DNA of 64,000 nucleotides from Bacillota bacterium (GCA_023381695.1 JAMCQP010000104.1:1-64000); one strand, 5' to 3'. Counted from the first letter of the stretch, positions 36,042 through 56,899 are shown. Notes: generated by a model not told the origin, from the letters alone. Translations and numbers: made by a program.

Positions 36042-38452
<2,411 letters not shown>

Positions 38453-38468
38453 CCGCCGTCACCCCTTG

Positions 38469-40572
<2,104 letters not shown>

Positions 40573-40909
40573 GCTGGATCTCCCGCCTCGCAATAGATTC
40601 AATCTCGCAATAGAGTCAATGTCGAACTTCTTGGGGAAGGGGCGTCAAACCTTCGAAAAGAAGAACCCCCTGCTTATCAGCAAAAATGCACCCCAGGGTG
40701 CTTGCTCTCGAACACCGGGTGCCAATAATCGGTTTATAAGCAAGATTACTTCCGGAATTAAATGTCTGAAGATGTTGAAAAGGATGAACCTGTAAACCGC
40801 AAGCAAGGCGCGGCACATCGTAATTGTTTCGACAAGAATGGACAATTTCCTCCTGAAAAAAACAAGATCTCTTCTATTTTAACAGAAGCCTGGATGGAAT
40901 CAGAAGGCA
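40573..40909. other. Gap upstream of the F1 genes
   Basis: About 340 bases between atpH and the YqgF-like gene. On the minus strand, a GGAGG then AAA then TTG at 40845 starts a 66-codon hydrophobic frame to 40645 (starting MSILVETITMCRALL), but the spacing is only 3 bases and no family is recognised. A TAAAAT about 300 bases before atpH could be a -10, with no clear -35. Probably holds the operon promoter; nothing firm was found. Confidence 0.35.
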
Positions 40910-41416
40910 TCAGGGGAGTTTTGGCGGAGCGGTTTTGGAAGAGGCGGAACCATGCAGGTACCTTTCTGCGAGAATCTCGGCCACATAGTCGTCGAAGGGC
41001 TCGGCGGGCACGCGCAGGGAATCGGGGAGCAGGCGCGCCAGGCCCCGGCCGGGGTGATCCTTCAGGTAGCGGCGGCGGCCCTCCTGGCTTGAGAGATGCT
41101 CATCCACCAGGACAACCGGACAATCGCCGGCGATAAAGCCCGCATGCTCCAATTCTCTGGCGAAAGCCTTTCCGCCGGTGCGATCCCCCACCACGATGGT
41201 CCGGATCGGGTACTTTTCCACCAGAGACTGGACCCGGCTCAGCGCTTCGCCGGCCGGGATCACTTCCTTCAAAATGGTGCGTTGATTCCCGCCAACAACC
41301 GCGCCATTGGCAACGCCCCCGGCAGCGCCCTCGGCCGCGTCAACGACCGCGATCCCGCATTTGTCGCTCCCCGGATCGACAGCCAGGAGATGTCCGGGCA
41401 TTCGGGCTTCAGACAC
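40910..41416 (-). CDS. YqgF/RuvX-like ribonuclease H-fold protein
   Basis: 168 residues. GHLLAVDPGSDKCGIAVVD contains the first acidic residue of the RNase H-like fold, VLVDEHLSSQEGRRRYL resembles the conserved DExxTS region (here DEHLSS), and FDDYVAEILAERYL near the end supplies the final aspartates. YqgF/RuvX processes pre-16S rRNA in model bacteria. GTG start at 41414-41416 after AAGGGGGG. It may be a divergent member; an in-frame ATG six codons on is an alternative. Confidence 0.7.
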   Translation of the reverse strand: MSEARMPGHLLAVDPGSDKCGIAVVDAAEGAAGGVANGAVVGGNQRTILKEVIPAGEALSRVQSLVEKYPIRTIVVGDRTGGKAFARELEHAGFIAGDCPVVLVDEHLSSQEGRRRYLKDHPGRGLARLLPDSLRVPAEPFDDYVAEILAERYLHGSASSKTAPPKLP

Positions 41417-41462: not shown

Positions 41463-43196
41463 CTAGATCGTTTGTATATCCCTGATCTTCATGGCCATGC
41501 GTAGATTGAGGACCACCTCGGGATCCGAGAGGTTTACGCCAAGTATTTCCTGGATTTGACGCAGACGGTACTTGAGGGAATTAACGTGGATAAAGAGACT
41601 GCCGGCCGCGTCCGCAAGACAGCTGTTTGCCTTGAGGTAGGCATCGAGGGTTTTGATCATGGCGGTTTTGTGAGCTTTGTCATATTCGACAAGCCTGCCG
41701 AGATACTCCTGGACGAAAACCCTCACCTCATTCGGATCGGCGCACTTGAGAAGTAGCCGGTAAACGCCAAGATCGTCGTAGTGGACCACGCTCTCGCCTC
41801 CCCACACCCTCTTCCCTAATAAGAGAGCCTCGCGGGCCTCAGCGTAGCTTCGTCGAAGGTCGAGCACGTCAGGATAAAATCGCCCGATCCCAACAGATAC
41901 TGTGAGGGGTTTGAGTTTTTCACACACCTTTTGCTTTAGCGTCCTTCCAAGCATCATGGCCATGCCCTTGGCGTCTTCCGCCGCGCCCCCTGGTTTTACA
42001 GGGCAAAGGACGGCCACGCTATCACTTCTATCGACAACGATGAAGGATTCGGCGCCCTCGATCTCCCTGCTGCTTACGATGTTCAGCATCCGATCCTTGA
42101 TACGTTGGATGTCCTTTTCAAATTCATCGACATGTTCGAGGTAGTACTTTTCAAAATTGTCAATATCCAGGATCAGCAAAACATGGGGCGGCGTAAAGTC
42201 CCAACCCAGCGATTTAGCACGCCGGATCACCGCCTCCCGTGTCTCAAAATTGCCCTGAAGGAGATCATCGACAAAGTTAAACCTGTATCGTCTTTCAACC
42301 TCCTCGGTCGCGCGTTGTTTGATGATCTCGAGAGCGGTCACGGTGGCCGCCTGTTCTATGGCAATAATATCCGTTTGAGTAAGGGGTGTCGCAGGTTGGA
42401 CGGCTGGCGCCGACTCACCGGTCGCGGGTGACTCACCGGACACGAGGGGTGAATCGGCAAGGGCCTCCTCCACCAGGATATACCCATAAACATCCCCTTT
42501 CACCCGTACCTCCGTGAGGAAAGCGCCTTGTCCCCCTTCAAACGGAATGAACTTGAACATCCCTGGCCCGTTTAACTTTTCTGCCAGGATAGCCTCTATA
42601 TCCTCCGTGGCCTCCGGATTCTGGGTGGCATCGAGATCTGGCACGGCCCGCGCAAGCACCTTGAAATTAGTATCCAGTATCAATACGGGGCGACGTATGA
42701 GTTCAGCGAGCGTGACCGCGACCGACGTGGTGCTCCCGCCGTTAAGCACCGAATCAAGGAAACGCCTGTGCACCTCCCATGATTGTTGCAACACCCGAGT
42801 CTGCCGATCCATCACGTCGCCCAAAATCGGATTGATGATGTCAATCCAGGCGAGCTCAAACGGGATCTGAATGATGGGAAGCTGCTCCTCATCGGCCTTT
42901 GCAATAGCGTCGTTGGAGAGTGAATCCAGAAACCTCCGGAGTTTGATGCCAAGGCATGCCGCCTTCTTCCTCGACAGGGCTTCCACGAGCCTCACCTGAG
43001 CGTCAGGGTCGTCTTTAATGGAGTAGGCGGTAGTGAGGACGAATTCGCCTCCCCTGAGCCATTCTACCGCGTCAGGTGCGTCTATCACCGTCACATACCT
43101 GATGACGTTATCGAGTCCGTCTTGCCCGGACAATAACCTCGCCTGCTTCAAACATGAAAAGCCAAGTGCTTCCTTGACCGTTAGATCCACTAGCAT
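41463..43196 (-). CDS. PucR-family transcriptional regulator
   Basis: 577 residues: N-terminal PucR sensory domain (about 8-125, VTVIDAPDAVEWLRGGEFVLTTAY), a middle GAF/GGDEF-like region, and the C-terminal PucR-type helix-turn-helix (AAGSLFIHVNSLKYRLRQIQEILG). The family activates purine, amino-acid and related catabolic genes. Its ATG shares a base with the phosphate acyltransferase stop (TGATG), so it is co-transcribed with the catabolic operon as the last gene, suggesting an activator or repressor of that operon that senses an intermediate. Confidence 0.88.
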   Translation of the reverse strand: MLVDLTVKEALGFSCLKQARLLSGQDGLDNVIRYVTVIDAPDAVEWLRGGEFVLTTAYSIKDDPDAQVRLVEALSRKKAACLGIKLRRFLDSLSNDAIAKADEEQLPIIQIPFELAWIDIINPILGDVMDRQTRVLQQSWEVHRRFLDSVLNGGSTTSVAVTLAELIRRPVLILDTNFKVLARAVPDLDATQNPEATEDIEAILAEKLNGPGMFKFIPFEGGQGAFLTEVRVKGDVYGYILVEEALADSPLVSGESPATGESAPAVQPATPLTQTDIIAIEQAATVTALEIIKQRATEEVERRYRFNFVDDLLQGNFETREAVIRRAKSLGWDFTPPHVLLILDIDNFEKYYLEHVDEFEKDIQRIKDRMLNIVSSREIEGAESFIVVDRSDSVAVLCPVKPGGAAEDAKGMAMMLGRTLKQKVCEKLKPLTVSVGIGRFYPDVLDLRRSYAEAREALLLGKRVWGGESVVHYDDLGVYRLLLKCADPNEVRVFVQEYLGRLVEYDKAHKTAMIKTLDAYLKANSCLADAAGSLFIHVNSLKYRLRQIQEILGVNLSDPEVVLNLRMAMKIRDIQTI

Positions 43197-44143
43197 CAAC
43201 TCACAAATTGATTTTCGCTGCTCATCAGCCTTGCAACCGCGATAGAGTTCAACTTGCTCTCGGCGGGATCCGACCGCGATGTAAGGACTATAGGCACCCG
43301 GGCGCCCACCACCACACCCGCCGATCTCGCATGAGCAATATAAAGGAGCGATTTCGCGAATATATTGCCTGAGTGGAGGTCGGGCATGATCAGGATGTCG
43401 GCCCGGCCCGCCACCGGACTGACGATACCCTTGTGGGCCGCGGCCTCCTGGGAAACGGCATTGTCTAACGCCAGGGGCCCATCGATAATTACGCCCTTTA
43501 TCTGGCCCCTGTCGCCCATCTTGGCAAGGGCGGCCGCGTCCACCGTGGCAGGAATGGCTGGATCCACGAACTCGGCAAAAGACAGGAGAGCCACTCCGGG
43601 TTCCTCTATTTGGAGAGCCCGGGCAACATCTGCCGCGTTCTCGAGAATCTGCTTCTTTTGGGCCAGGTCCGGAGCCACGACTATCCCCACATCGGCAACG
43701 AGGATCAGGCGGTCGAATCCTTGAATCTCGTAAATGCCAACCTGCGATAGCAGGCGATCCCCCCGGAGCCCCTTCTCCCGGTCAAGCACGGCCCGCATGA
43801 ATGTAGCTGTGTCTACGAAACCCTTGATCAAGATGGAGGCTTCGCCGGATGCAGCCGCGGCGACAGCCCTGGCGGAGGCGTCAGCAGGATTCGCCGCGCC
43901 CACCAATTGGATTTTCTTGGCCTCTAACTCGGAATCAATTCCAATTTGCCTCAAAGCCTTACTCATCTCAGAGAGCTTGCCAGTAAGAACGGCACGGTGC
44001 ACCAGCCCGGATTGCATCGCATGACTGAGCGCCGTAAGCACTTTGCTGTCACTTGCGCCGGCGACTGCCACCGCGACGGGCCCAGCATCCCGGGCCGCCT
44101 GAATGATCGCTTCAAAAGAATGGAATGCCCTGGCGCTATTCAT
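43196..44143 (-). CDS. ptb: Phosphate acetyl/butyryltransferase family protein (Ptb-like)
   Basis: 315 residues of the PTA_PTB fold: VAVAGASDSKVLTALSHA near the start, RLILVADVGIVVAPDL in the middle, DGPLALDNAVS and ADILIMPDLHSGNIFAKSLLY near the end. Converts an acyl-CoA to an acyl-phosphate. Overlaps buk by 8 bases, the usual ptb-buk pairing. The acyl specificity is not necessarily butyryl in this operon. Confidence 0.9.
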   Translation of the reverse strand: MNSARAFHSFEAIIQAARDAGPVAVAVAGASDSKVLTALSHAMQSGLVHRAVLTGKLSEMSKALRQIGIDSELEAKKIQLVGAANPADASARAVAAAASGEASILIKGFVDTATFMRAVLDREKGLRGDRLLSQVGIYEIQGFDRLILVADVGIVVAPDLAQKKQILENAADVARALQIEEPGVALLSFAEFVDPAIPATVDAAALAKMGDRGQIKGVIIDGPLALDNAVSQEAAAHKGIVSPVAGRADILIMPDLHSGNIFAKSLLYIAHARSAGVVVGARVPIVLTSRSDPAESKLNSIAVARLMSSENQFVS

Positions 44144-45212
44144 ACACCCTCGGCACCTCTTCCCCTGTCAATACCCTGAACACGCCCAGGGCAAGCGCCT
44201 CCATCTCTCCCTCTCCAGGAAACACCAGTATTGGGGCAATAAAACTCACCCGCTCAATTATCCACTCCACCAGCATCTTGGAATGGGCCATGCCGCCTGT
44301 CAACACGATGGCATCGACCTTGCCCTTCAGGACGGTTGCAAGCGCCCCGATGTATTTTGCAAATTGGTAGGCCATGGCCTCAAAGATAAGCCTGGCCCCA
44401 TCTTCCCCGTCGTGAATCCTCCCTTCCACCTCGGTGGCATCCTTGGTCCCAAGGTAGGAAGTGATCCCTCCCCCCCCGACCAGTTTCTTTACCACTTCGT
44501 CCCTGGCATACCTGCCCGAAAAGCACATGTCCACAAGCTCGAGCGTGGGGATCCCGCCAGCCCGCTCTGCCGTGAAAGGCCCTTCCTTATCCGAATTATA
44601 CAGGTCTATCATCCGGCCTCCCATGTGGGCGCTGATCGATCCGCCGCCCCCCATATGGGCGACGACAAGGTTGGCCTCTGCATAGGTGATTCCAAGTTGC
44701 AAGGCAGCCTTTCGGGCCACGGCTTTCATATTAAGGGCATGAGACAGGCTATTTCTCTGAATCTCCCGGATGCCTGACACTCTCGCTATGTCGTCAAGCT
44801 CATCAACAGCGACCGGGTCAACGACAAAGACCGGTATGTTGAGTGGCGCCGCCAGATCCTTTCCTATAAGACAAGCGAGGTTGGAGGCATGTTCGCCCTG
44901 AAGGCTCCTGCGAGAATCCTGCATCATCCGCTCATTTGCCAGGTAGGTGCCGCTTGGAATGGGTTTTAGCCGTCCCCCTCTGGCGGCTACGGCATGAATA
45001 GCATTCAGTGCTATCCCATTTTCCCCGAGTGCGCGCAACACCAGGCCCTTACGCCATTCCAGCTGGTCCAGGATCTTCGGATACCGTGAAAGCTCTTCAA
45101 CGCCGTGAGAGTATGATTTCGTGAAAAGGCAGTCGGAATTCCTGTAGACTGCGACCCTGGTTGATGTGGAACCGGGATTGATGACCAGGATGTTAAAGGC
45201 TTTTGATTCCAA
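44136..45212 (-). CDS. buk: Butyrate/branched-chain acyl kinase
   Basis: 358 residues with VINPGSTSTRVAVY (P-loop-like start of the acetate/butyrate kinase fold), VVAHMGGGGSISAHMGGRMIDLYN and AIVLTGGMAHSKMLVEWI. Makes ATP from acyl-phosphate, completing substrate-level phosphorylation with Ptb. TTG start (45210-45212) follows AAGGGGG. Butyrate kinase naming is by fold; branched or hydroxylated acids are possible substrates here. Confidence 0.93.
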   Translation of the reverse strand: MESKAFNILVINPGSTSTRVAVYRNSDCLFTKSYSHGVEELSRYPKILDQLEWRKGLVLRALGENGIALNAIHAVAARGGRLKPIPSGTYLANERMMQDSRRSLQGEHASNLACLIGKDLAAPLNIPVFVVDPVAVDELDDIARVSGIREIQRNSLSHALNMKAVARKAALQLGITYAEANLVVAHMGGGGSISAHMGGRMIDLYNSDKEGPFTAERAGGIPTLELVDMCFSGRYARDEVVKKLVGGGGITSYLGTKDATEVEGRIHDGEDGARLIFEAMAYQFAKYIGALATVLKGKVDAIVLTGGMAHSKMLVEWIIERVSFIAPILVFPGEGEMEALALGVFRVLTGEEVPRVYE

Positions 45213-45237
45213 CGGCTAAACCCCCTTGAGATTAAAC

Positions 45238-46848
45238 TTAGTAGAGGGTGCATGCGGTGCCGTAGCGCCTTATTGCGAATTCTCGGTGACCCGCCCGTTC
45301 TGACCAGGTCGGCTTGCCGGACGCCACATCAAGCAATTCTCGAAATATCTTTTGGCCGGCTACGCTCAAGGTCAGATTTCCAGTGACTATCCCTCCAACA
45401 TCTACATCGATCACATCCGGCATCCACCGCAGCACTTCTGAGTTGCTGGAAACCTTGATTACCGGCGCAATCGGACTTCCGGTAGGTGTTCCAAGGCCGG
45501 TGGAAAACACAATGATCTGGGCGCCCCCTGCCACCACACCGGTCATGGACTCGATATCGTGACCCGGGGTATTCATGATCACAAGCCCACTGGAGGTAGG
45601 AGAAGATGCATAGTCGACTACTTCCTGAATCGGTGTGAAACCAGCCTTGCGGATACATCCAAGCGATTTTTCCTCGATGGTGGAGAGCCCACCGGCAATG
45701 TTACCCGGGGTAATATCGCCAAGGGAGTTTCCCCCAATTAGCGCCAGTTCCTGCTCGGTCCGGCGCACAATCTCCAATACTGCCTGCCCGACAGTTTGAT
45801 CTCGAGCCTGGCCCGCGAGGATGTGTTCGGCCCCGATCATTTCCGTGGTTTCGGAAAGGACTACGGTACCCCCATAGCCTACCACCAGGTCACCCATGAC
45901 CCCGATGGCGGGGTTGGCCGAGAGTCCCGAAAACGCATCCGACGCCCCACACTCTACCGCGACTGTGAGACGGCTTGCCTGAACCTCCTCCCGGGCCTCG
46001 GAGGCCAGTTGCCGCGATAAAACCTCCGCGATCTGCCGCCCCCTTTCGATGCTCCGGTTCACACCGCCATCTCGCTGGATGACCACATCTTTGACAGGCT
46101 TTCCCGAGCGCCTGATCTCTTCTGCAATGCGCTCGATGGAGACAGTCTCGCACCCCAGGCCAACCAGAATCACGGCCCCCACGTTGGGGTTGCGACCGAA
46201 TCCCCCAAAGACCTTCTCGACGTCCGCATTGGTTGCTGGATCGAGGTTGCACCCGTATTGATGGTAGATATTGACGGCTCCAGAAATCCCCGCGGCGATG
46301 GCCTCCGCAACGGCAGCAGCGCAGATAACTACGGGGAGCACTAAAAGATGGTTGCGCACCCCGACCAGGCCGTCGGGGCGAACAAATCCCATAAAGGTAG
46401 GAATCTCTCCTGGTCTATTCTGATCGGGGTGGAACGATATTTGATTGGTCGCCATTTCGGATGCCAAAATTCCTTGCGCCATCGGGCTTGCGACCTCTGC
46501 ATCCTTAGATTGAGCCGTATACTTCTCAAGGAATTTGCCTCTGACGCTGTTTAAGTTATGCACATGGACATGCGAGCCGCGCTTGATAGGTACGGCAGCG
46601 ACCCCGATCGGCGCGCCGTACTTTACCACTGCCTCACCCTGGGAAATATCCGATAGAGCCACCTTATGTCTGATGGGTAGATCTTCCACGAGTTCAAGGA
46701 GGGACGGCGCCGATTCTGTGCTGTCGGAGGAACCGCGCGCCTCCAGGGGGTTGACTGCCCCGATCAACTCTACGCGCTCGCCGCGGCCGGCAGCTTCAAG
46801 AAGTGTTGCCACGTTGTCGTTATGGTTCTGGATTATTGCCCGTTTCAA
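45238..46848 (-). CDS. UxaA-type altronate/galactarate dehydratase-like hydro-lyase
   Basis: 536 residues. An N-terminal SAF domain (ending RGSHVHVHNL) is fused to the large D-galactarate/altronate dehydratase domain: FVRPDGLVGVRNHLLVLP, HQYGCNLDP with an iron-binding-type Cys, VGLGCETVS, VECGASDAFSG and NTPGHDIESMTGVVAGGAQI. It likely removes water from a sugar-acid or beta-hydroxy acid. TTG start 46846-46848 after GGAGG, overlapping the lyase gene by 29 bases. No uronate isomerase or reductase accompanies it, so altronate itself is doubtful. Confidence 0.88.
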   Translation of the reverse strand: MKRAIIQNHNDNVATLLEAAGRGERVELIGAVNPLEARGSSDSTESAPSLLELVEDLPIRHKVALSDISQGEAVVKYGAPIGVAAVPIKRGSHVHVHNLNSVRGKFLEKYTAQSKDAEVASPMAQGILASEMATNQISFHPDQNRPGEIPTFMGFVRPDGLVGVRNHLLVLPVVICAAAVAEAIAAGISGAVNIYHQYGCNLDPATNADVEKVFGGFGRNPNVGAVILVGLGCETVSIERIAEEIRRSGKPVKDVVIQRDGGVNRSIERGRQIAEVLSRQLASEAREEVQASRLTVAVECGASDAFSGLSANPAIGVMGDLVVGYGGTVVLSETTEMIGAEHILAGQARDQTVGQAVLEIVRRTEQELALIGGNSLGDITPGNIAGGLSTIEEKSLGCIRKAGFTPIQEVVDYASSPTSSGLVIMNTPGHDIESMTGVVAGGAQIIVFSTGLGTPTGSPIAPVIKVSSNSEVLRWMPDVIDVDVGGIVTGNLTLSVAGQKIFRELLDVASGKPTWSERAGHREFAIRRYGTACTLY

Positions 46849-48103
46849 CGCAGGACGCCTCCCTAACCCGGTCGATTATCTCCTTGAGTTCTTCCTCCGA
46901 AACAATATCCCGTTTTGCCCTCCCGAGCGCCTTGACCTTTTCCAAAATAGCCTCGGCTTCTTCTTCGGTGCACCCGATGCCAAGTTTGTCCAAAAAATAG
47001 CTTACGCTGGCCTTCCCGCTTGAACCCCCGAAGACAACCTGCAGTTCTTCGTGCCCAACTATCTCCGGGAGATAAGGCATCATTGCCGCCTTAATTCCTT
47101 GGGCCTCCAGCTTTTGTTTCGCATGGATCACGACGCCGGATTCCGCCATAAACAATCGCTTGCCCATTACAGGTTTGTTGCGCCATACAGGCACCCCGGA
47201 GATATCCTCGACGAGACGGGAAACGGCTGCGAGCTTCTCCAGCTTTATCCCCGTGTGGATATTTAAAAGAAGCTCCAGCGCCGTCACCACCTCCTCGGTG
47301 GGGACGTTTCCCGTCCGCTCCCCGAGGCCGTTTATCGAAGCATGAATCCCGTCCACCCCGGCATACGCAGCGGCGACAACAGAACCCATGGCCATTCCAA
47401 ATTCATTATGAATATGGAGCTCAACCCGCACCCCGGGCAGATCTTCTTTCAGTGCCTTTATGGCGCGGTAGATAGCCAGGGGAGAGGCCACACCAAAACT
47501 ATCGGTAAACACGACCGCCTCTGGGTGAGATTTCTCCACTACGGCCTTATATACCTTTCTCACGTAGTCGAGTGTCGCCCGTGTCACGTCCCACCCCATA
47601 AAGGTGGTCTTAAGGCCTAAACTCCTGGCATACTCTATAGCTCCCGCAATCCGGTCAATCAACTGTTCAGTATCCACATCATATGCATACTTGCACAGGT
47701 ATGGATTGACCGCATGTTCGACAACAATCGAGCGCACCCCGGTCTCAGCCGAAGCATCAATATCGCCTTTCAACGCCCTGGCAAACGGAATGATCTCAGC
47801 CCCAAGGCCCATCTTGACAAGCCTCTCAATGGCGCTGCGAATATCCTCGGATACTACGGGCATTCCCACCTCGATTCGCTGCACCCCGATTTCGTCAAGG
47901 GCTACGGCTATTCTGATTCTTTCGTCTTCCGTCCAGTTGAGCCCACACGTCTGCTCGCCATCCCGTAGGGTCACATCGTGTATGTAGATATCCTTGGATA
48001 TTTCACCCGTCATCACCTCGGGCGCGAAATTCTGCGGCGAAACCCACTTCTTTGCGTTGAAGTAGGGCGCCCCCGCTAACTGCATGTTTTCGAGAATCTC
48101 CAT
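46820..48103 (-). CDS. DRE-TIM metallolyase (homocitrate/isopropylmalate synthase or HMG-CoA-lyase-like)
   Basis: 427 residues. The HMGL-like barrel carries the metal-binding VTLRDGEQ (44-51) and HIHNEFG (His230, His232, Asn233) motifs. An N-terminal extension of about 38 residues (FNAKKWVSPQNFAPEV) precedes the barrel. The C-terminal regulatory LeuA domain is absent, so leucine feedback is not expected. It either condenses acetyl-CoA with a 2-oxo acid or cleaves an acyl-CoA; in this operon cleavage or retro-Claisen release of an acyl-CoA for Ptb is the inference. Confidence 0.85.
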   Translation of the reverse strand: MEILENMQLAGAPYFNAKKWVSPQNFAPEVMTGEISKDIYIHDVTLRDGEQTCGLNWTEDERIRIAVALDEIGVQRIEVGMPVVSEDIRSAIERLVKMGLGAEIIPFARALKGDIDASAETGVRSIVVEHAVNPYLCKYAYDVDTEQLIDRIAGAIEYARSLGLKTTFMGWDVTRATLDYVRKVYKAVVEKSHPEAVVFTDSFGVASPLAIYRAIKALKEDLPGVRVELHIHNEFGMAMGSVVAAAYAGVDGIHASINGLGERTGNVPTEEVVTALELLLNIHTGIKLEKLAAVSRLVEDISGVPVWRNKPVMGKRLFMAESGVVIHAKQKLEAQGIKAAMMPYLPEIVGHEELQVVFGGSSGKASVSYFLDKLGIGCTEEEAEAILEKVKALGRAKRDIVSEEELKEIIDRVREASCVETGNNPEP

Positions 48104-48133
48104 GGGATCTGCTCTCCCTCCATTTCACGCAAA

Positions 48134-49132
48134 TTAGGTACGCCGTTTTTTCATTTGTCGATCAAGAACCACCGCAAACACGATCACGCTCCCTATTACT
48201 GCCTGATGCAGAAATGACGATACATTCAACAGATTAAGCCCATTGCCAATTATTCCGATAAGAATAACCCCGGCTACCGTGCCGTAAATCGTCCCCTCGC
48301 CTCCGAAGAACGATGCCCCGCCTACAACTGCTGCCGCAATGGAATTAAGTTCCATGCCAACCCCCGCGGATGGTTGCCCTGATATCAGTCTGGAGGCTAA
48401 CATGACGCCGGCCAGTCCAGCGAGCAGCCCGGAAATAACATACGCCCACGATATCATCCGATCCACATCAATCCCCGACACTTTCGCAGCCTTGGGATTC
48501 CCGCCGACGGCGTAAAGGTGTCTGCCAAAGACCGTGTGCGAGACCATAAAATGGGCAAGAATCGCCACCACCGCAACAACGAGGATAGGGACGGGCAACC
48601 ACCCCAAATAGCCCCGTCCCAGGAAAGAAAAAGAATCATTATTAAAGGGGACTATGGGGACCCCTTGAGTGGCGTAGAGTATAGTCCCCGCCCCAATAAT
48701 TTGCGTGGATAGGGTGGCCAAAAAAGGTTCCATCCGTCCGATTGTGATGAGAAAAGCATTAAGCACTCCGACTAATCCCCCTGATACGACACCCGCAAGG
48801 AAAGCCAGATTCAGATCAATCCCTTTTAGCAATAGAAAGGTAGTCAGACATCCCGAAATACTGATGACAGAGCTAACTGACAGGTCTATTCCAGCCGTAA
48901 TGATGACAAGGGTTTGTCCGATTGCAATCAATAGTAAGAAGCTGCTTTGACGTATTACGTTGAGAATATTTTCAGAAGTAAGGAACCACGGACTCAGTAA
49001 AGATAATACCACCCCAACCAAAAGAGTGATGGCGATTATTCCAAAGCTACGGACAAATGCTTGATAGTCAATTTTGGACTGGGCCTTTTCCGCAGTGATA
49101 TGATCTGAAGTGGTTTCTGGCTTATTTATCAT
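48134..49132 (-). CDS. Sugar-type ABC transporter permease (RbsC-like)
   Basis: 332 residues, eight to ten hydrophobic segments, and the BPD_transp_2 features LLIAIGQTLVIITAGIDLSVSS and GNPKAAKVSGIDVDRM. Carries the solute across the inner membrane with the RbsA-type ATPase, whose stop it overlaps by 11 bases. Ribose is not implied; this family carries many sugars, autoinducer-2 and sugar acids. Confidence 0.93.
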   Translation of the reverse strand: MINKPETTSDHITAEKAQSKIDYQAFVRSFGIIAITLLVGVVLSLLSPWFLTSENILNVIRQSSFLLLIAIGQTLVIITAGIDLSVSSVISISGCLTTFLLLKGIDLNLAFLAGVVSGGLVGVLNAFLITIGRMEPFLATLSTQIIGAGTILYATQGVPIVPFNNDSFSFLGRGYLGWLPVPILVVAVVAILAHFMVSHTVFGRHLYAVGGNPKAAKVSGIDVDRMISWAYVISGLLAGLAGVMLASRLISGQPSAGVGMELNSIAAAVVGGASFFGGEGTIYGTVAGVILIGIIGNGLNLLNVSSFLHQAVIGSVIVFAVVLDRQMKKRRT

Positions 49133-50627
49133 CTCGACTTCCTCCCGTCATAATCTCGAGAATAGACCGATAGCTGATCTCCGCCGGGTTAAGTTCCGCG
49201 ACGATTTCTCCTTTCCGCATTGCCAGGATTCGATCGCTAACTCTAAGGGCTTCGAGAACGTCAGACGTCAGTACAATGATTCCTACGCCCTCGCTAGCAA
49301 TTCCCTCTAGAATGGTATAAAACTCCTGGCGCGTCCCCACATCAATCCCACGAGTAGGTTCATCGAGAATCAGGATCGTTGGCCGTCGGGCCAGCCATTT
49401 GCTAAGAACGACCTTCTGCTGATTGCCTCCACTGAGAAATTCTACTTTTTGACTGAGACCAGCTGTCTTGATATCGAGCCCCTGGACAAACTTTTGAGCT
49501 ACAGATTTCTCTGGCGCCCTGCTCACCAGTCCGAGCCAGCGAGCTAACTGCCGGACAATAACCAGGCAGATATTCTCTTGTACGCCCAGCATCAACACCA
49601 GTCCATCATCGCGACGGCTTTCCGTAACATACCCCAACCCGTTCCTTATAGCATTCAACGGAGATCCGAATTTGACGTGTCTGCCCTGAACAAATAGTTC
49701 TCCACCCTCAATCCTATCGAGACCGAACAGGGCCCTTGCCAGTTCTGTTTTCCCGGAACCGACCAAACCCACGACCCCCAGGATCTCCCCTTTGCCAAGC
49801 TCGAGGTTAATGTTGTTTAACCGGTGGTTCGATAAGGCTTTCGCAGTAAGTAACTCAGGTAGAGCTTTTTCCTTCAGGGTCTTCTTCGAAGCCATGTATT
49901 CCACTTCACGCCCAACCATCATCTTTACGAGCTCTTTGGGCGTCGTTCCAGTTTTTGAAACTGTAGCCACATTTTCTCCGTTGCGAAAAACGGTTATCCT
50001 ATCGGCCATTTCAAATATTTCTTCCATCTCATGGGAAACATATATGATACTGATTCCTTTCTCTTTCAGCCCGGCGATGATGCCAAACAGCTTCTGCACT
50101 TCCGCCCGGCTAAGAGAAGACGTTGGTTCGTCCATAATGAGGATCCTGGAATCGGCCGAGACATTGCGGGCGATCTCTACCATCTGCTGCTCCGCGATAG
50201 AGAGTGTTCCTACCCGACGACGCGGATCGATCTGATATCCAATTGCTTCGAGAACTTGACTGCTTTGCTCAAAAAGACTTTCTTTATCTAATAACCTCAG
50301 CCGACCGCGCGGTTCACGCCCCAAGAAAATATTCTCGGCAACCGTCAATTGCGGAACGACACTGAGCTCCTGGTATACCGTGCTTATCCCCATCCGACGC
50401 GCCTGAAGCGGATTTTCGATCTCCACTTTATTTCCAATTAGAAAAATCTCCCCCGAATCCGGCTTGATCACACCCGACAAGATATTGATTAAAGTAGACT
50501 TCCCGGCGCCGTTTTCTCCTACCAGGGCATGCACCTCCCCGGGAAGCACCTCAAGACTGACGCTATTTAAGGCTTGAACGCCAGGAAATTTTTTTGATAC
50601 ATCTTTAACGAGAAGAGCCGTATCCAT
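49122..50627 (-). CDS. Sugar-type ABC transporter ATPase, duplicated (RbsA-like)
   Basis: 501 residues with two ABC domains. First Walker A GENGAGKST (37-45); second domain has the usual degenerate GLVGSGKTEL and an intact LSGGNQQKVVLSKWL signature. ATG 50627 follows AGGTGG; an upstream in-frame start at 50660 lacks support. Powers import with the permease next door. Confidence 0.95.
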   Translation of the reverse strand: MDTALLVKDVSKKFPGVQALNSVSLEVLPGEVHALVGENGAGKSTLINILSGVIKPDSGEIFLIGNKVEIENPLQARRMGISTVYQELSVVPQLTVAENIFLGREPRGRLRLLDKESLFEQSSQVLEAIGYQIDPRRRVGTLSIAEQQMVEIARNVSADSRILIMDEPTSSLSRAEVQKLFGIIAGLKEKGISIIYVSHEMEEIFEMADRITVFRNGENVATVSKTGTTPKELVKMMVGREVEYMASKKTLKEKALPELLTAKALSNHRLNNINLELGKGEILGVVGLVGSGKTELARALFGLDRIEGGELFVQGRHVKFGSPLNAIRNGLGYVTESRRDDGLVLMLGVQENICLVIVRQLARWLGLVSRAPEKSVAQKFVQGLDIKTAGLSQKVEFLSGGNQQKVVLSKWLARRPTILILDEPTRGIDVGTRQEFYTILEGIASEGVGIIVLTSDVLEALRVSDRILAMRKGEIVAELNPAEISYRSILEIMTGGSRDDK

Positions 50628-50684
50628 CGTCTTGTCCACCTGCCTTCCCACCGCCCTCACCGGGGTACATGTTGCCGAATCGGT

Positions 50685-51518
50685 CTAAACGATAGCAATG
50701 GCCCTGCCGGGCGCACCCGTGCCCCCTTTGACTTTAATGCCCAGGAAGATGTAAAATGCACCCCGCGGCGGTAATTTACCGAGATTGCACAGCTTTTCCG
50801 TAAACACTAATCCGTGCTCAAGGCCGGCCCAATGGGGCGAATTGTCATCTTGAATGAGGCCCATGCTTGGAGTGTCAATACCGACATGCCTGACCCCCTT
50901 TTCGACCAGGTATTCCATCGTTCTTGCCGAAGGTGCAGGAAAGCCGATCGTGCGTTCCCTTCCCCAAAGAGGTGTCCAGAATCTGCAGTCCTGGTCCAGC
51001 TTATACCCTTCCGGAAATTGGCGAAAGAATCTATCGGTCCAGCCAGTATAAAGGAGGACGACATCGTCGGGCCTGATATCCCCGTGCCTTGCCTCCCATT
51101 GTTTGATTCTTTCAGGTTCAATCACCGGACTTACTCCGGGTTTTTCGGTGCCGACCAGGTCTGTACAGTCTACGACGAGAGCGGGGCCCATTGTTTGAGT
51201 AACCGGGATCTTCTCTACGGTGGTATTTCCCTCAGGGCCGGCATGAGGTAAATTGGTGTCCGGTGGAGGGATCATGTGCGCGGGTGCATCACAGTGAGTC
51301 CCAGTATGTTCTTCCATTATGAGAACATAATCGAAAAAAGGAGCCCTTGACAAAGAGCCTTCGAACCAGTTGAACTTCGCCTTAAGAAACGGCTGCCCGC
51401 CTGGACACCAGGCCGGGGTATCTTCAGAGATCAACACCGATAGATCAATCACTTGGGCTTGCTCAGATCGGATCAAGCGCGCGATTTCGGTCCCCACGGG
51501 GCTAACTGATTTTTCCAT
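50685..51518 (-). CDS. Cyclase-family (kynurenine-formamidase-like) metal-dependent hydrolase
   Basis: 277 residues with the diagnostic metal motif HTGTHCDAPAH (71-81) and the later GVRHVGIDTPSMGL block. Relatives open cyclic amides, lactones or cleave formamides with Zn or Mn. It sits between the transporter's binding-protein and ATPase genes, so it should act on the imported compound or its first product. ATG 51518 follows GGAGA. Confidence 0.88.
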   Translation of the reverse strand: MEKSVSPVGTEIARLIRSEQAQVIDLSVLISEDTPAWCPGGQPFLKAKFNWFEGSLSRAPFFDYVLIMEEHTGTHCDAPAHMIPPPDTNLPHAGPEGNTTVEKIPVTQTMGPALVVDCTDLVGTEKPGVSPVIEPERIKQWEARHGDIRPDDVVLLYTGWTDRFFRQFPEGYKLDQDCRFWTPLWGRERTIGFPAPSARTMEYLVEKGVRHVGIDTPSMGLIQDDNSPHWAGLEHGLVFTEKLCNLGKLPPRGAFYIFLGIKVKGGTGAPGRAIAIV

Positions 51519-51617
51519 AACAGGTTATCTCCTTCCTTTTCCTTGTCTCCCTGTCTAGCTGACACCCGATGTCAAAGTGCCAGCCAGACAAGGAAATTCT
51601 CTCACGTCGAATCCTCT

Positions 51618-52562
51618 CTACTTGAAGCTTTCAAGATACTCTGACGCATTCTGTGGAGTTATGTCTGCGATCCATGTTGAGACAGCAATCGGTACTCGCT
51701 CACCAGTGGCAGCCTCGTAGGCTACTCGCGCAGCATACCGGGCCATCATGGCTGGATCCTGAGCAACCGTAACAACTATAGGTGTCTTGCCAGCTTTCAT
51801 CAGCTGCGCGGTTTCTTTTAAACCGTCTATGCTTCCGATGATTATGCCCTTTTGTTTTCCCCGAGCGATTATGGCATCAGATGCCCCCAGGGCGTTAAAG
51901 TCACTGAATGTCAGGACTGCATCAACTTTTGGAAATCGTGTTAAAATATCTTCCATATTGGTCATATTGACCGCCCGGTCTGATGAACCCCACTTCTGAG
52001 TCAGAATCTTAATCTTAGGATATTCTTTAAGGCCTTCCATGAAGCCAGCATTTCTTAAACGCGCTACCATCGTTTGTGGTGGCCCGTTCAGAATTACTAC
52101 GTTTCCTTTCCCTCCGAGCTTTTCGGCGATGTAAGTAGCCGCCATGCGCCCGGCGAGAGTGTTATCCGTTCCCACATAACAAGCAACCGTCGCTTTCGGG
52201 GAGATTGCTCTATCAATGGTGACGACGGAAATGCCTTGCTGAGCCGCCTTATTCACGATTGGGACAACAGCCTCGGAATCCACAGCGTTCAGCACAATGG
52301 CATCGACCTTCTTGGCGATAAGATCCTCAAGCTGAGCCATCTGCTTGGTGATGTTGTTTGCTGCATCTACCGCGGTAGTTTCGGCGCCAAGTTTGTGAGC
52401 AGTGTCCTCCGTAGTATGTAGAAGGCTCTGCCAGAACTCTGATTCCAGGGTCGAAAAAGCAATGCCAATCATAACTTTTTCCTTGGAAGCACCAAAAGCA
52501 GAAACACTCACCGAGACCACCATAACGGCAACCGCTACTAAAACGACCAATAGCCTTTTCAT
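51618..52562 (-). CDS. Sugar-type ABC substrate-binding protein (RbsB-like)
   Basis: 314 residues. Signal peptide LLVVLVAVAVMVVSVSVSAFGA, then a Peripla_BP_4 fold: MIGIAFSTLESEFWQSLL, VDAIVLNAVDSEAVVPIVNKA, YVGTDNTLAGRMAATYI and VDAVLTFSDFNALGA. No lipobox Cys follows the signal, as expected for a soluble periplasmic binder in a diderm. ATG 52562 follows GGAGGTCAGCAGT. It defines the substrate of this operon; its pocket (Phe/Trp/Asp) cannot be read by eye. Confidence 0.93.
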   Translation of the reverse strand: MKRLLVVLVAVAVMVVSVSVSAFGASKEKVMIGIAFSTLESEFWQSLLHTTEDTAHKLGAETTAVDAANNITKQMAQLEDLIAKKVDAIVLNAVDSEAVVPIVNKAAQQGISVVTIDRAISPKATVACYVGTDNTLAGRMAATYIAEKLGGKGNVVILNGPPQTMVARLRNAGFMEGLKEYPKIKILTQKWGSSDRAVNMTNMEDILTRFPKVDAVLTFSDFNALGASDAIIARGKQKGIIIGSIDGLKETAQLMKAGKTPIVVTVAQDPAMMARYAARVAYEAATGERVPIAVSTWIADITPQNASEYLESFK

Positions 52563-52707
52563 ACTGCTGACCTCCTTAGTAATCAATAATGTGGAGATTG
52601 CTCTTTTCTTGATTGCCAGCGCACGATACAGGATGTAGAGAACTCTCACCCCCCATCAATTTCCTGACGATTTCCCCAGGATAAGAGATGGCGAACTGGT
52701 AAGCCAA

Positions 52708-54009
52708 CTATCCACTGGAATGCCATGACCGTGTTAGAAAATCTATCACCAGTTCCACCATCCCCCGAACCCCTATCCTTAACACATCTTCGTCAAACCC
52801 AAAGAGGGAATGGTGTAAAGGATAAGTGCTCTCTCCCGGTGCTTTCCCTGTGCCGATAAGAAACATCGCGCCCGGAACCTTCTCGAGATAGTAAGCAAAG
52901 TCCTCTCCAACCATGGAAGGTTTAGTCATGGTTGCCACCTTGTCTGGTCCCAAGATCGATGAACACACATCACGAACGAATTCAGCCATTCTCGCATCAT
53001 TTATGACTGGCGGATAACCAAAAGTGTATTCAAAGTCGTACTCTGCTCCTGCGCTCTCGGCAATACCTTTGACCTTTCTCTCAATCAACCCTGGCATGAC
53101 GCTGCGCAAGGCGGGGTCCAGGGTTCTCACGGTACCCTTCAATTCTGCCAGATCGGCGATAGCGTTGTAAGCGCGCCCAGCCTTAAAGTCCCCGATACTC
53201 AGGACCATGGGCTCCACAGGGTCGGTTTCCTTGCTTACTATGGCCTGCAGAGCGAGTACCAGCTGGCTTGCAGCAACGATCGCATCAGAACTCTTATGCG
53301 GTGTCGCAACATGGCCGCCGCGGCCGCGAAGGGTTATGGAGACCTTATCGAGAGCCGCCATAGCGGGACCATGGTGTACCCCGATTTGCCCATGAGAGAG
53401 ATCAGGCCACAGATGCAGAGCAAATATTCCATCTACCGGCGGGCTGTCGAGAACCCCTTGAGCGATCATCTCACGGGCCCCTCCGAGGCTTTCTTCGGCA
53501 GGTTGGAAGATGAATTTCACACTGCCTTCAAAAGTATCCCTGAGTTTCGAGAGGACCATGGCGGTGCCCAGGAGTATGGCCACATGACCATCATGGCCAC
53601 ACGCGTGCATGAGGCCCGGTACCCGCGAGCTAAACTCAAGGCCGGTATCCTCCGGAATGGGCAAGGCGTCCATGTCGGCCCTGAGCGCCACGGTGCGACC
53701 GTCCCCCCGCCCCCGGAGTAAACCGACCACTCCGGTGCGGGCGATGCCTGTCATCGGCTCCACGCCAAGACTGGCGAGCGTCTCCGCACAGAGAGCGCCG
53801 GTCTGCCTTTCCTCAAACCCAAGCTCAGGGTGGGAGTGAATCTGCCGGCGTATTCTGATTACCTCGGGCATCGTGCGGTTGACGAGATCATCCAGAAGTT
53901 GCGATGAAATACCAGGTCCTGATCGCATCGTTGCCGGCGCAGAAAGATTATCGTTATGCAAAGATTCACTGATCTTGCCTGAGACTCGTAACAAAGCGTC
54001 TTCTGACAT
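52708..54009 (-). CDS. M20 family metallo-amidohydrolase
   Basis: 433 residues. Peptidase M20 features: QIHSHPELGFEE, ALRADMDALPI, HACGHDGH with metal ligands His135, Cys137 and His139, IFQPAEE near 170, and a later GRGGHVATPHKSSD dimerisation lid. Removes an acyl or carbamoyl group from an amino-acid-like amide. First gene of the operon; the promoter lies in 54010-54190. ATG 54009 has AAGGAAAGGG upstream. N-terminal 30 residues are an unusual extension. Confidence 0.9.
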   Translation of the reverse strand: MSEDALLRVSGKISESLHNDNLSAPATMRSGPGISSQLLDDLVNRTMPEVIRIRRQIHSHPELGFEERQTGALCAETLASLGVEPMTGIARTGVVGLLRGRGDGRTVALRADMDALPIPEDTGLEFSSRVPGLMHACGHDGHVAILLGTAMVLSKLRDTFEGSVKFIFQPAEESLGGAREMIAQGVLDSPPVDGIFALHLWPDLSHGQIGVHHGPAMAALDKVSITLRGRGGHVATPHKSSDAIVAASQLVLALQAIVSKETDPVEPMVLSIGDFKAGRAYNAIADLAELKGTVRTLDPALRSVMPGLIERKVKGIAESAGAEYDFEYTFGYPPVINDARMAEFVRDVCSSILGPDKVATMTKPSMVGEDFAYYLEKVPGAMFLIGTGKAPGESTYPLHHSLFGFDEDVLRIGVRGMVELVIDFLTRSWHSSG

Positions 54010-54190: not shown

Positions 54191-56899
54191 TCAAAACCGG
54201 TAACCGGCCGAGGCGGAGATCCGGCTGGCCAGGTAGTCATCCGGCGACGCAGCCGCGGATTCCTGGGCGACCAGGCGCCCGTCCAGCTTCAGATCCAGCC
54301 CGCTCACCGGGTAGACCAGGACAAAGTCGGCGTATCTTCTCGTGGACGCGGGCTCCCTGGCAAACAGATCCGCTGCCTGCTCCTGCCGCATCCCGATGGC
54401 CAGCCTGGCGATCTTCCAGCCAAAATTCAGATCCGCCCCCAATGTAAAAGTCCCCTCTTTGGAGTCCTGCTTTCCGGGGGTTGCCGATGTTGCGCTGACC
54501 ACTTTGTCAAAATCCCGATCGGTGGCCCTGTACCGGTAGCCTCCCAGGATGCTCAGCCACTTGCGCAACCGGAATGCCGCCTGGAAATCCGCGATGTCGC
54601 TGTCGTCGGTGGTCCACTCGCCGTCCAACTCCACCAGGTTGTCGGTAATATCGTTGCGGGTCTTTTCGTAGGAGGCGTTAATCGTGACTCCCTCCACCAT
54701 CCGCCAGTCCTGGATGGCCACCCTGGCCAGCGCATGCTGCAGGTTCCCCTCGAGTCTCCGGCCGTATTCCGCGGCCCCCACCAGCGGCAGGGAGCCCAGC
54801 TTGACCTCCCCCCGCCCGTCCACCCAGAAGGTGCGCTTTTCGGCCTCGCCCGTGCCGGCGGCGAGAATCTCGGTCAATCGCCAGTTCATCCGGGAGCCGA
54901 GGATGAACGGGTGTGAAAGCGCATACTTGCGGCCGGACGTCCCCTTTTGCCAGTCCACCAGCCGGCCCTCCAGGTCCCAGGCCTTGTGGAAGAGGGGTTC
55001 AAAACCATCGTCGATCCCGAAGAGATCCACGCCAAGCTTCATGCCGGCCCATTGGCCCTCGAATAAACCCTCCCGGGCCCCCGCCCCGCTGTCCGGATCG
55101 GACGCAAACTCCAGCCGGTAAGTGAGGGAAGGGTCACCGGCGCTGGTCAACCGGCCGCTCAGATCGAGGCCGTAAACCCGGTCCCGCCCCGGCGTGATGG
55201 GCAGAATCCCCCCGGAACCCGCGCTCCCCCCGGCTCCCACCGCCGGAGACCCGGCCGGAGAATCCAGGCTCGTCCCGTTGAGGCCCCCTACAAAGACGCC
55301 GCCCAGTTTGAGCGCCTCCCCGAGATCCACCACGGAACGCAGCGCGTAAAAACCGGCCTCCCCATCTCTGGGAAGGATCCCATCCGGGTGAAGACTGTAT
55401 CGCGAGGGGCTGAACCGCAGGCGCCCCACGATGGCCCTGGCGCTTACATTGCCGGCGCCAAGCATCAAAAGCCCCCCCTGGCGCCTCACTTCTTCCACAT
55501 CGGTCCCCACAACGGCGGTGGGATCCAGGGTGAACCGCGAAAAACCTTCCGCCAGCGCCTCGGGCTTCATCTCGCCAATGTGCAGCGACCGCAGCGCGCT
55601 TTGAGTAATCATATCCAGATCCACCCGGAAATTATCCCCGCTCGTGGGGCTCCCTGCCGTGCTTCCGCCAGGGCTCCCCCCGGAACTCCCCGCCGGGAGG
55701 CCAAGCAGGTCCTGGATCAGGGTGACCCCGGCTCTGGTATTGACCCCCTGGGCCGGGCTGTACTCCAGGTTCAAACCCAAACTGGTCTGAAATTTGGAGG
55801 TCGTCAAAAAGATATCGTCGAGATCCCGCTCCACGTCCCAGGTATGCATGTCCCCGTCGTAGTCGCGCTTCTGGGGGTCCCGGTAGGGAACGCCCGGGCC
55901 GGCCGTGCGGGCGTCCTCAAAGACGGTCTCCACCGCGCCGCCAATCTTGAGCTTTCCGGCCCGTCCCCGGCTTTCGGGATCGGCGTCCTGCAGGGCCGTC
56001 ACCTTCTCCTGGAGGCTGTCCACCTTCTTCCCCAGGCCGCCGACCTCCTCTTTCAGGCCGCCCATCTGCTGGTCGATCCCCGCCACTTTTTCATCCAACC
56101 CGCTCACCTTTTGCTGGAGGGTATCCAGGAGAGCCTCCAGATTGGCAACCCTGACCCCCATCTGCTCCAGCTCGGGCCGGAACTCTTTGACGAGATCCTG
56201 CACCGCCCTGGAGACCTCGTCGACCTGCCAGGCAATCTCCGCCGGAGGCAGCTTGAGAGCCGCCAGCCTGTCCGTCACCAGCTTTTCAATCGCGGTTCCC
56301 AGAAGCGAAGAGGCCAGGTTGCCCGCCCCGTCCAGTAGTCCGGCTCCGTCCAGCCCGGTCCCGCCCTCCTGGGGTTTGCCGGAAGCCGGCGCCACGGCGT
56401 TTAGCGCCTGCTGGGCGAGCCGCACGGCGTTGTCCGCCGCTTCCTGCGTGCGTTTGATGTTCTCCCCGCTGGTCTCCACGACCTGGCGCGCTTCCTCCGC
56501 GGCCTTGACCGCCGCCTCGGCTTTAGCGAGAGCATCCCGCGCCATCTTCTGCGTTTCGGAGGTTGAAGCCTTGAGCGTGTCCCTGGCGGTGGCCTGGGCT
56601 TTTTGGGCGGCCTTCAGCGCCGCCGCGACCTGCGTCTTCGCCTCGGCCTTGACCAGGGACTCCAGTTTTTCCATCACCCGCCCGGTGTAGATGGCGAATT
56701 CATAACGGGTCAAGGGCTGATCCCCCCGGAAAGTGCCGTCGGAGTACCCCTGGACGATTCCCACCGCCGCCAGTTTTTTGATCGCGTCATAGGCCCAGTT
56801 GTCCACCGGGACGTCAGGAAAGACCCCGGCCGCCGCCGGAGCCGCAACAAGCAGGATCAAGGCGCCGCATAAAAGAAGCGCTGCTGCCTTTCGGTACAT
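54191..56899 (-). CDS. OmpM-like outer-membrane protein: SLH, coiled coil, beta-barrel
   Basis: 902 residues. Signal peptide (ALLLCGALILLVAAPAAA), one SLH domain (about 25-70, FPDVPVDNWAYDAIKKLAAVGIVQGYSDGTFRGDQPLTRYEF split as usual), an Ala/Lys/Glu-rich coiled coil (80-165), a second heptad-repeat region (225-310), then about 590 residues of alternating strands ending ASAGYRF with terminal Phe. In Negativicutes, OmpM-type proteins tether the outer membrane to peptidoglycan and form porin pores. This is the strongest outer-membrane marker in the window. ATG 56899; no lipobox. Confidence 0.85.
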   Translation of the reverse strand: MYRKAAALLLCGALILLVAAPAAAGVFPDVPVDNWAYDAIKKLAAVGIVQGYSDGTFRGDQPLTRYEFAIYTGRVMEKLESLVKAEAKTQVAAALKAAQKAQATARDTLKASTSETQKMARDALAKAEAAVKAAEEARQVVETSGENIKRTQEAADNAVRLAQQALNAVAPASGKPQEGGTGLDGAGLLDGAGNLASSLLGTAIEKLVTDRLAALKLPPAEIAWQVDEVSRAVQDLVKEFRPELEQMGVRVANLEALLDTLQQKVSGLDEKVAGIDQQMGGLKEEVGGLGKKVDSLQEKVTALQDADPESRGRAGKLKIGGAVETVFEDARTAGPGVPYRDPQKRDYDGDMHTWDVERDLDDIFLTTSKFQTSLGLNLEYSPAQGVNTRAGVTLIQDLLGLPAGSSGGSPGGSTAGSPTSGDNFRVDLDMITQSALRSLHIGEMKPEALAEGFSRFTLDPTAVVGTDVEEVRRQGGLLMLGAGNVSARAIVGRLRFSPSRYSLHPDGILPRDGEAGFYALRSVVDLGEALKLGGVFVGGLNGTSLDSPAGSPAVGAGGSAGSGGILPITPGRDRVYGLDLSGRLTSAGDPSLTYRLEFASDPDSGAGAREGLFEGQWAGMKLGVDLFGIDDGFEPLFHKAWDLEGRLVDWQKGTSGRKYALSHPFILGSRMNWRLTEILAAGTGEAEKRTFWVDGRGEVKLGSLPLVGAAEYGRRLEGNLQHALARVAIQDWRMVEGVTINASYEKTRNDITDNLVELDGEWTTDDSDIADFQAAFRLRKWLSILGGYRYRATDRDFDKVVSATSATPGKQDSKEGTFTLGADLNFGWKIARLAIGMRQEQAADLFAREPASTRRYADFVLVYPVSGLDLKLDGRLVAQESAAASPDDYLASRISASAGYRF

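Follow-up and report, generated by a model that had tools for sequence, protein, structure and literature searches.

A ten-gene run in a Bacillota bacterium as a probable hydroxy-acid catabolic module with a conserved core

Gene content and layout

We analysed a 64,000-nucleotide stretch of a Bacillota bacterium genome (GCA_023381695.1, JAMCQP010000104.1:1-64000; hereafter the window) and focused on ten open reading frames (ORFs) that are packed tightly on its minus strand at 41463-54009. This run is very probably a conserved module for the breakdown of hydroxy acids, linked to the interconversion of acyl-CoA, acid and ATP. The first-pass annotation, made from the sequence alone, had described ten same-strand genes of the families listed below, and all ten ORFs were found at their coordinates with Pfam and NCBIfam profiles backing the family call for each (10/10):

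52708-54009, minus strand: M20D amidohydrolase of 433 aa that opens the run (TIGR01891, 373 bits against a cut-off of 154)
51618-52649, minus strand: RbsB-type substrate-binding protein, Peripla_BP_4 (PF13407, 224 bits)
50685-51518, minus strand: cyclase-family metal hydrolase with the motif HTGTHCDAPAH (PF04199, 118 bits)
49122-50660, minus strand: RbsA-type sugar ABC ATPase with two ABC_tran domains (profile matches)
48134-49132, minus strand: RbsC-type permease, BPD_transp_2 (PF02653, 145 bits)
46820-48103, minus strand: DRE-TIM metallolyase with an HMGL-like domain and a weak match to the homocitrate-synthase post-HMGL domain (profiles, alignment and tree)
45238-46848, minus strand: UxaA/GarD-type hydro-lyase, an N-terminal SAF domain fused to GD_AH (PF20629, 300 bits; PF04295; PF08666)
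44136-45212, minus strand: acid kinase of the butyrate-kinase family, Buk (TIGR02707, 492 bits against a cut-off of 289)
43196-44143, minus strand: phosphotransbutyrylase family protein, Ptb (PF01515, 160 bits; PRK05805, 337 bits)
41463-43199, minus strand: PucR-family regulator, with which the conserved run ends (PF07905, PF17853, PF13556)

Overlaps of 1, 8, 11 and 29 bases had also been reported, and three of these stand (Ptb/Buk 8, RbsC/RbsA 11, UxaA/DRE-TIM 29), whereas PucR and Ptb overlap by 4 bases, or by 1 only if the second methionine of PucR is the start. The remaining intergenic gaps span 24-99 bp, and a purine-rich stretch resembling a ribosome-binding site precedes most starts (25 upstream bases read per gene). 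Promoter and terminator scans gave no signal clearly exceeding the shuffled background, and an Rfam scan of the run returned zero matches.

Conservation of the core across genomes

Among 399 genomes of the phylum, 6 carry a close relative of the DRE-TIM protein (63-70% identity), and a wider search of genome contigs, mostly metagenome-assembled genomes (MAGs), supplied further relatives. About 14 non-redundant loci, from Bacillota MAGs, Cryosericum and one Spirochaetales MAG, share a core of DRE-TIM, UxaA, Buk and Ptb, often with PucR and M20, in an order that is the same or similar. Because this order recurs in unrelated genomes, the arrangement is not a product of chance. The synteny of the core genes, on which the first-pass annotation had staked its reading, is therefore borne out; the window's cluster is a variant whose cyclase and Rbs genes are missing from the other core clusters, most of which carry LarA and other importers.

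Six Bacillota loci whose DRE-TIM proteins are 63-70% identical (L066, L067, L068, L069, L070 and L072) share the window's order DRE-UxaA-Buk-Ptb-PucR, with Buk 59-64% identical in close relatives. M20 homologues of 53-55% identity start the clusters at L067-L070, and another, of 58%, is found upstream of the cluster at L066, in L127. At 50-59% DRE-TIM identity, DRE, UxaA, Buk and Ptb are still linked in Tissierellia (L093), Clostridiaceae (L092) and Candidatus Cryosericum (L096), in the rearranged orders Buk-Ptb-DRE-UxaA or DRE-Buk-Ptb-isomerase-UxaA. The small and large subunits of UxaA are separate genes in L066, L070 and L096 and are fused in the window. In a plasmid collection, all matches to the DRE-TIM protein were below 60% identity.

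More distant members of the DRE clade lie in other settings. At L077, L083 and L084 the gene (37-39% identity) accompanies creatininase-like, cupin, 2-hydroxyacid dehydrogenase and SucCD-like genes, a gene content that reads as a parallel variant in which a CoA ligase replaces Ptb-Buk. At L080, L081 and L082 clade members lie close to glycyl-radical enzymes and TRAP transporters, with LarA and UxaA added at L082.

Residue changes in the DRE-TIM protein and its clade

The DRE-TIM protein keeps LRDGEQ, HxHNE and GERTGN, and the metal and arginine motifs LRDGEQ, HxHN and GERxGN are invariant in an 11-member alignment. In a tree the protein belongs to a 28-sequence clade (support 0.97) that is separate from NifV and isopropylmalate-synthase-like references; two rows from the window's own genome were wrong-frame ORFs and were disregarded. 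The general-base histidine (SGIH; His388 of BjMAMS) is present in 6/6 reference synthases and replaced across the DRE clade (VV[DHQ]A and others), and all clade members, but no references, have a glutamate at the position of residue 129 of the window protein. The clade also has tryptophan for the glutamate of xxEDxxR (GWD, Trp171), a change that is less telling than the loss of the histidine because some reference synthases lack that glutamate as well. Against curated synthase models the protein scores below the cut-offs (326 vs 517, 266 vs 463 and 303 vs 485 bits). Its AlphaFold model, of moderate quality (mean predicted local distance difference test score 72, predicted template modelling score 0.68), has homocitrate, methylthioalkylmalate and isopropylmalate synthases as top fold matches, and the C-terminal subdomain of CoA-using Claisen enzymes is kept in the sequence (aligned, with a weak HCS_D2 match). 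Given the replaced general base and the clade-specific glutamate, the protein is probably not an isopropylmalate or homocitrate synthase but belongs to a new subfamily that combines a synthase fold with probably different chemistry.

It seems distinctly improbable that the protein is a conventional condensing synthase of unusual specificity, joining a 2-oxo acid to acetyl-CoA in a biosynthetic or overflow route. Homocitrate and isopropylmalate synthases are indeed closest by fold and sequence, but the equivalent of His388 is replaced clade-wide, the H388A, H388D and H388E variants of a methylthioalkylmalate synthase were all inactive (PMC11532901), and the DRE gene is linked to importers and dehydratases. 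Leucine or homocitrate biosynthesis was rejected in view of the DRE-TIM residues, scores and gene context. An energy-yielding reversal of an isopropylmalate-synthase reaction was rejected because its thermodynamics are unattractive.

Another reading, which we consider rather unlikely, is that the protein is a metal-dependent aldolase that cleaves 2-oxo-3-deoxy (4-hydroxy-2-oxo) acids to pyruvate and an aldehyde without CoA, leaving Ptb-Buk to use acyl-CoA from an unlinked 2-oxoacid:ferredoxin oxidoreductase. The 4-hydroxy-2-oxovalerate aldolases belong to the DRE-TIM superfamily, the synthase general base is missing, and genes read from sequence at L125/L113 link such an oxidoreductase to SucCD, IlvD and UxaA. 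However, the Claisen-type C-terminal subdomain is retained, synthases rather than aldolases are the best sequence and fold matches, and no oxidoreductase lies in the window run.

Dehydratase and acyl-CoA enzymes

The SAF, GD_AH second and C-terminal domains of the UxaA-type protein all score above gathering cut-offs and its nearest PDB structure is GarD (6u7l), while its 282 bits fall short of the galactarate dehydratase equivalog cut-off of 731. An altronate or galactarate route was ruled out on this score and on the absence of the partner enzymes.

Buk scores above the TIGR02707 butyrate kinase equivalog cut-off, and Ptb falls within the PF01515 family but below a Ptb subfamily cut-off (PRK05805, 337 vs 399 bits) and the phosphate butyryltransferase equivalog cut-off (TIGR02706, 325 vs 410.5 bits). 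Family searches of the same genome found AckA on contig C111 and a second Buk-Ptb pair on C71 (L123) beside a leucine-dehydrogenase-like gene. Since these are separate, the Ptb-Buk of the window is probably dedicated to the pathway rather than housekeeping, which supports the view that it forms (or uses up) an acyl-CoA particular to this pathway. Among distant DRE-clade members, a SucCD-like CoA ligase is a neighbour in L077 and an acetate kinase in L079, so that, judged by gene neighbourhoods, an ATP/acyl-CoA step recurs next to this lyase family. These neighbours and the dedicated Ptb-Buk lead us to favour acyl-CoA formation by the DRE-TIM protein followed by ATP formation.

Run in the opposite direction, Ptb-Buk could spend ATP on a malate-type acid, and the DRE-TIM protein would then cleave the hydroxyacyl-CoA to acyl-CoA and a 2-oxo acid, in the manner of malate thiokinase and malyl-CoA lyase. 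Malate racemases are nearest to the LarA1 of relatives, the SucCD-like ligase adjoins DRE in L077/L083/L084, and HMG-CoA lyase shares the DRE-TIM superfamily, yet this scheme costs ATP in apparent fermenters and leaves UxaA unexplained, and we regard it as improbable.

Importers and cyclase

The importer differs by locus: Rbs occurs only in the window, Liv in most relatives, TRAP in L093 and NMT1 in L092. The window's RbsB-cyclase-RbsA-RbsC block is flanked directly by M20 and DRE, the place taken in relatives by Liv-(IlvD)-LarA-LarA, and its third-position GC content is 0.50-0.56 compared with 0.62-0.66 from DRE through PucR. Because it replaces the relatives' genes and has the lower GC content, the block looks like an exchanged import cassette.

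Among core clusters the cyclase occurs only in the window, with a distant 25% match beside the DRE gene in L074. Isatin hydrolases are its nearest PDB structures, and a relative of 57% identity lies in L104 beside RbsC-B-A, a D-threonate-kinase-like gene, a PdxA-family gene and an iron alcohol dehydrogenase; the kinase and PdxA-family genes fall below threonate-specific cut-offs (317/450 and 331/583 bits). This neighbourhood suggests that the window cyclase hydrolyses an acid-sugar lactone (or amide). Kynurenine or isatin breakdown was rejected, as only distant scores were obtained (TIGR03035 kynurenine formamidase, 42 vs 223 bits).

Substrate class and proposed pathway

Most relatives carry one or two LarA-family nickel racemases, for which the malate racemase Mar2 is the nearest solved structure and malate racemase and LarAH10 are the nearest models. 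Some add IlvD scoring above the ilvD equivalog cut-off, an IolO-like TIM-barrel isomerase, or GlcD/EtfA or Ldh_2 dehydrogenases. Reported substrates of epimerisation by LarA enzymes include 2,3-dihydroxybutyrate and 2,3-dihydroxyisovalerate (PMC11770544). Because the linked LarA, IlvD, IolO-like isomerase and dehydrogenases are all hydroxy-acid enzymes, the substrate class is likely that of 2-hydroxy or 2,3-dihydroxy acids (acid sugars).

Two other clusters have related content. The same genome holds a second acid-sugar-like cluster (L106, G000:C17, 3379-12644) with GlcD, IlvD, a weak LarA-like protein, a split UxaA and Ldh_2. The acid-sugar cluster at L125/L113 (G387:C91) comprises 2-oxoacid:ferredoxin oxidoreductase-like genes, a SucCD-like ligase, a 2-hydroxyacid dehydrogenase, IlvD, UxaA and GlcD, and a DRE gene was not found in it.

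We tentatively propose, with somewhat less than even confidence in the full mechanism, that the operon breaks down a short acid sugar (a 2,3-dihydroxy acid) or its lactone or amide and ends in substrate-level phosphorylation. RbsABC would take up the compound, the cyclase-family enzyme would hydrolyse a lactone and M20 would split an amide-linked form. As expected for its family, the UxaA-type enzyme would remove water from the 2,3-dihydroxy acid, leaving a 2-oxo-3-deoxy acid, and the DRE-TIM protein would cut a C-C bond of this acid or a derivative to give an acyl-CoA, which Ptb and Buk would pass through acyl phosphate to acid and ATP, with PucR controlling the operon. That the DRE-TIM protein, with its new set of catalytic residues, thiolyses the dehydrated acid sugar with CoA directly to acyl-CoA, so that hydrolysis, dehydration and thiolysis are redox-neutral and ATP is made via Ptb-Buk, is a more doubtful part of this scheme.

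Several points weigh against the proposed breakdown. The substrate is assigned from enzyme families, and the window run is without the LarA of most relatives, the one strong LarA match in the genome being unlinked on C120. The threonate link of the cyclase comes from one locus, L104, in which threonate-specific cut-offs are not reached, and M20 is without a place in a pure acid-sugar route. No Ptb was found near DRE in L088, L089 and L097 (Spirochaetales). The DRE clade could consist of aldolases or condensing enzymes, and we know of no precedent for CoA-dependent cleavage by a DRE-type enzyme of a substrate that is neither a beta-dicarbonyl nor a CoA ester.

Two further substrates were considered and rejected. 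Pantothenate or pantoate, prompted by M20, LarA and branched-chain-like genes, was ruled out as pantoate has no beta-hydroxyl usable in UxaA-type dehydration. Purine or allantoin breakdown, prompted by PucR, M20 and an adenine-deaminase-like gene in L093, was rejected as the other clusters are without purine genes.

If the proposed breakdown is true, an acid-sugar fermentation route recurs in uncultured anaerobes, and members of its DRE-TIM subfamily, whose catalytic residues are altered, are probably being annotated as isopropylmalate or homocitrate synthases.

Flanking genes, read by eye, include an SLH-domain S-layer-like protein of 902 aa (54191-56899) on the same strand, 181 bases upstream of the M20 gene. 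Downstream of the run lie an ORF resembling a RuvX-type resolvase (40910-41416) and three resembling ATP synthase gamma, alpha and delta (37523-40602).

Comparison with known systems

In agreement with the first-pass annotation, no described pathway with this gene combination was found in the searched literature, in which subscription journals were thinly covered. Altronate and galactarate dehydration (UxaA, GarD) has the dehydratase family and its SAF and large domains in common with the window run, which however is without uronate isomerase, reductase and 2-keto-3-deoxygluconate kinase or aldolase. Isopropylmalate, homocitrate and citramalate synthases share the fold, the metal motif and the C-terminal subdomain of the DRE-TIM protein, which differs in its missing general-base histidine, in a tryptophan at the position of a glutamate conserved in many synthases, and in the clade-specific Glu129. 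Branched-chain amino-acid fermentation uses the same acyl-CoA-to-ATP enzymes, and the second set on C71 is of this kind, but leucine dehydrogenase and 2-oxoacid oxidoreductase are not part of the window run. The pathways for the four-carbon acid sugars D-threonate and D-erythronate (DUF1537 kinase, PdxA2) share the acid-sugar theme, and the nearest relative of the cyclase and Rbs block lies beside such genes in L104; profile scans place neither the kinase nor PdxA2 in the window run, which has a dehydratase, the DRE-TIM protein and Ptb-Buk instead.

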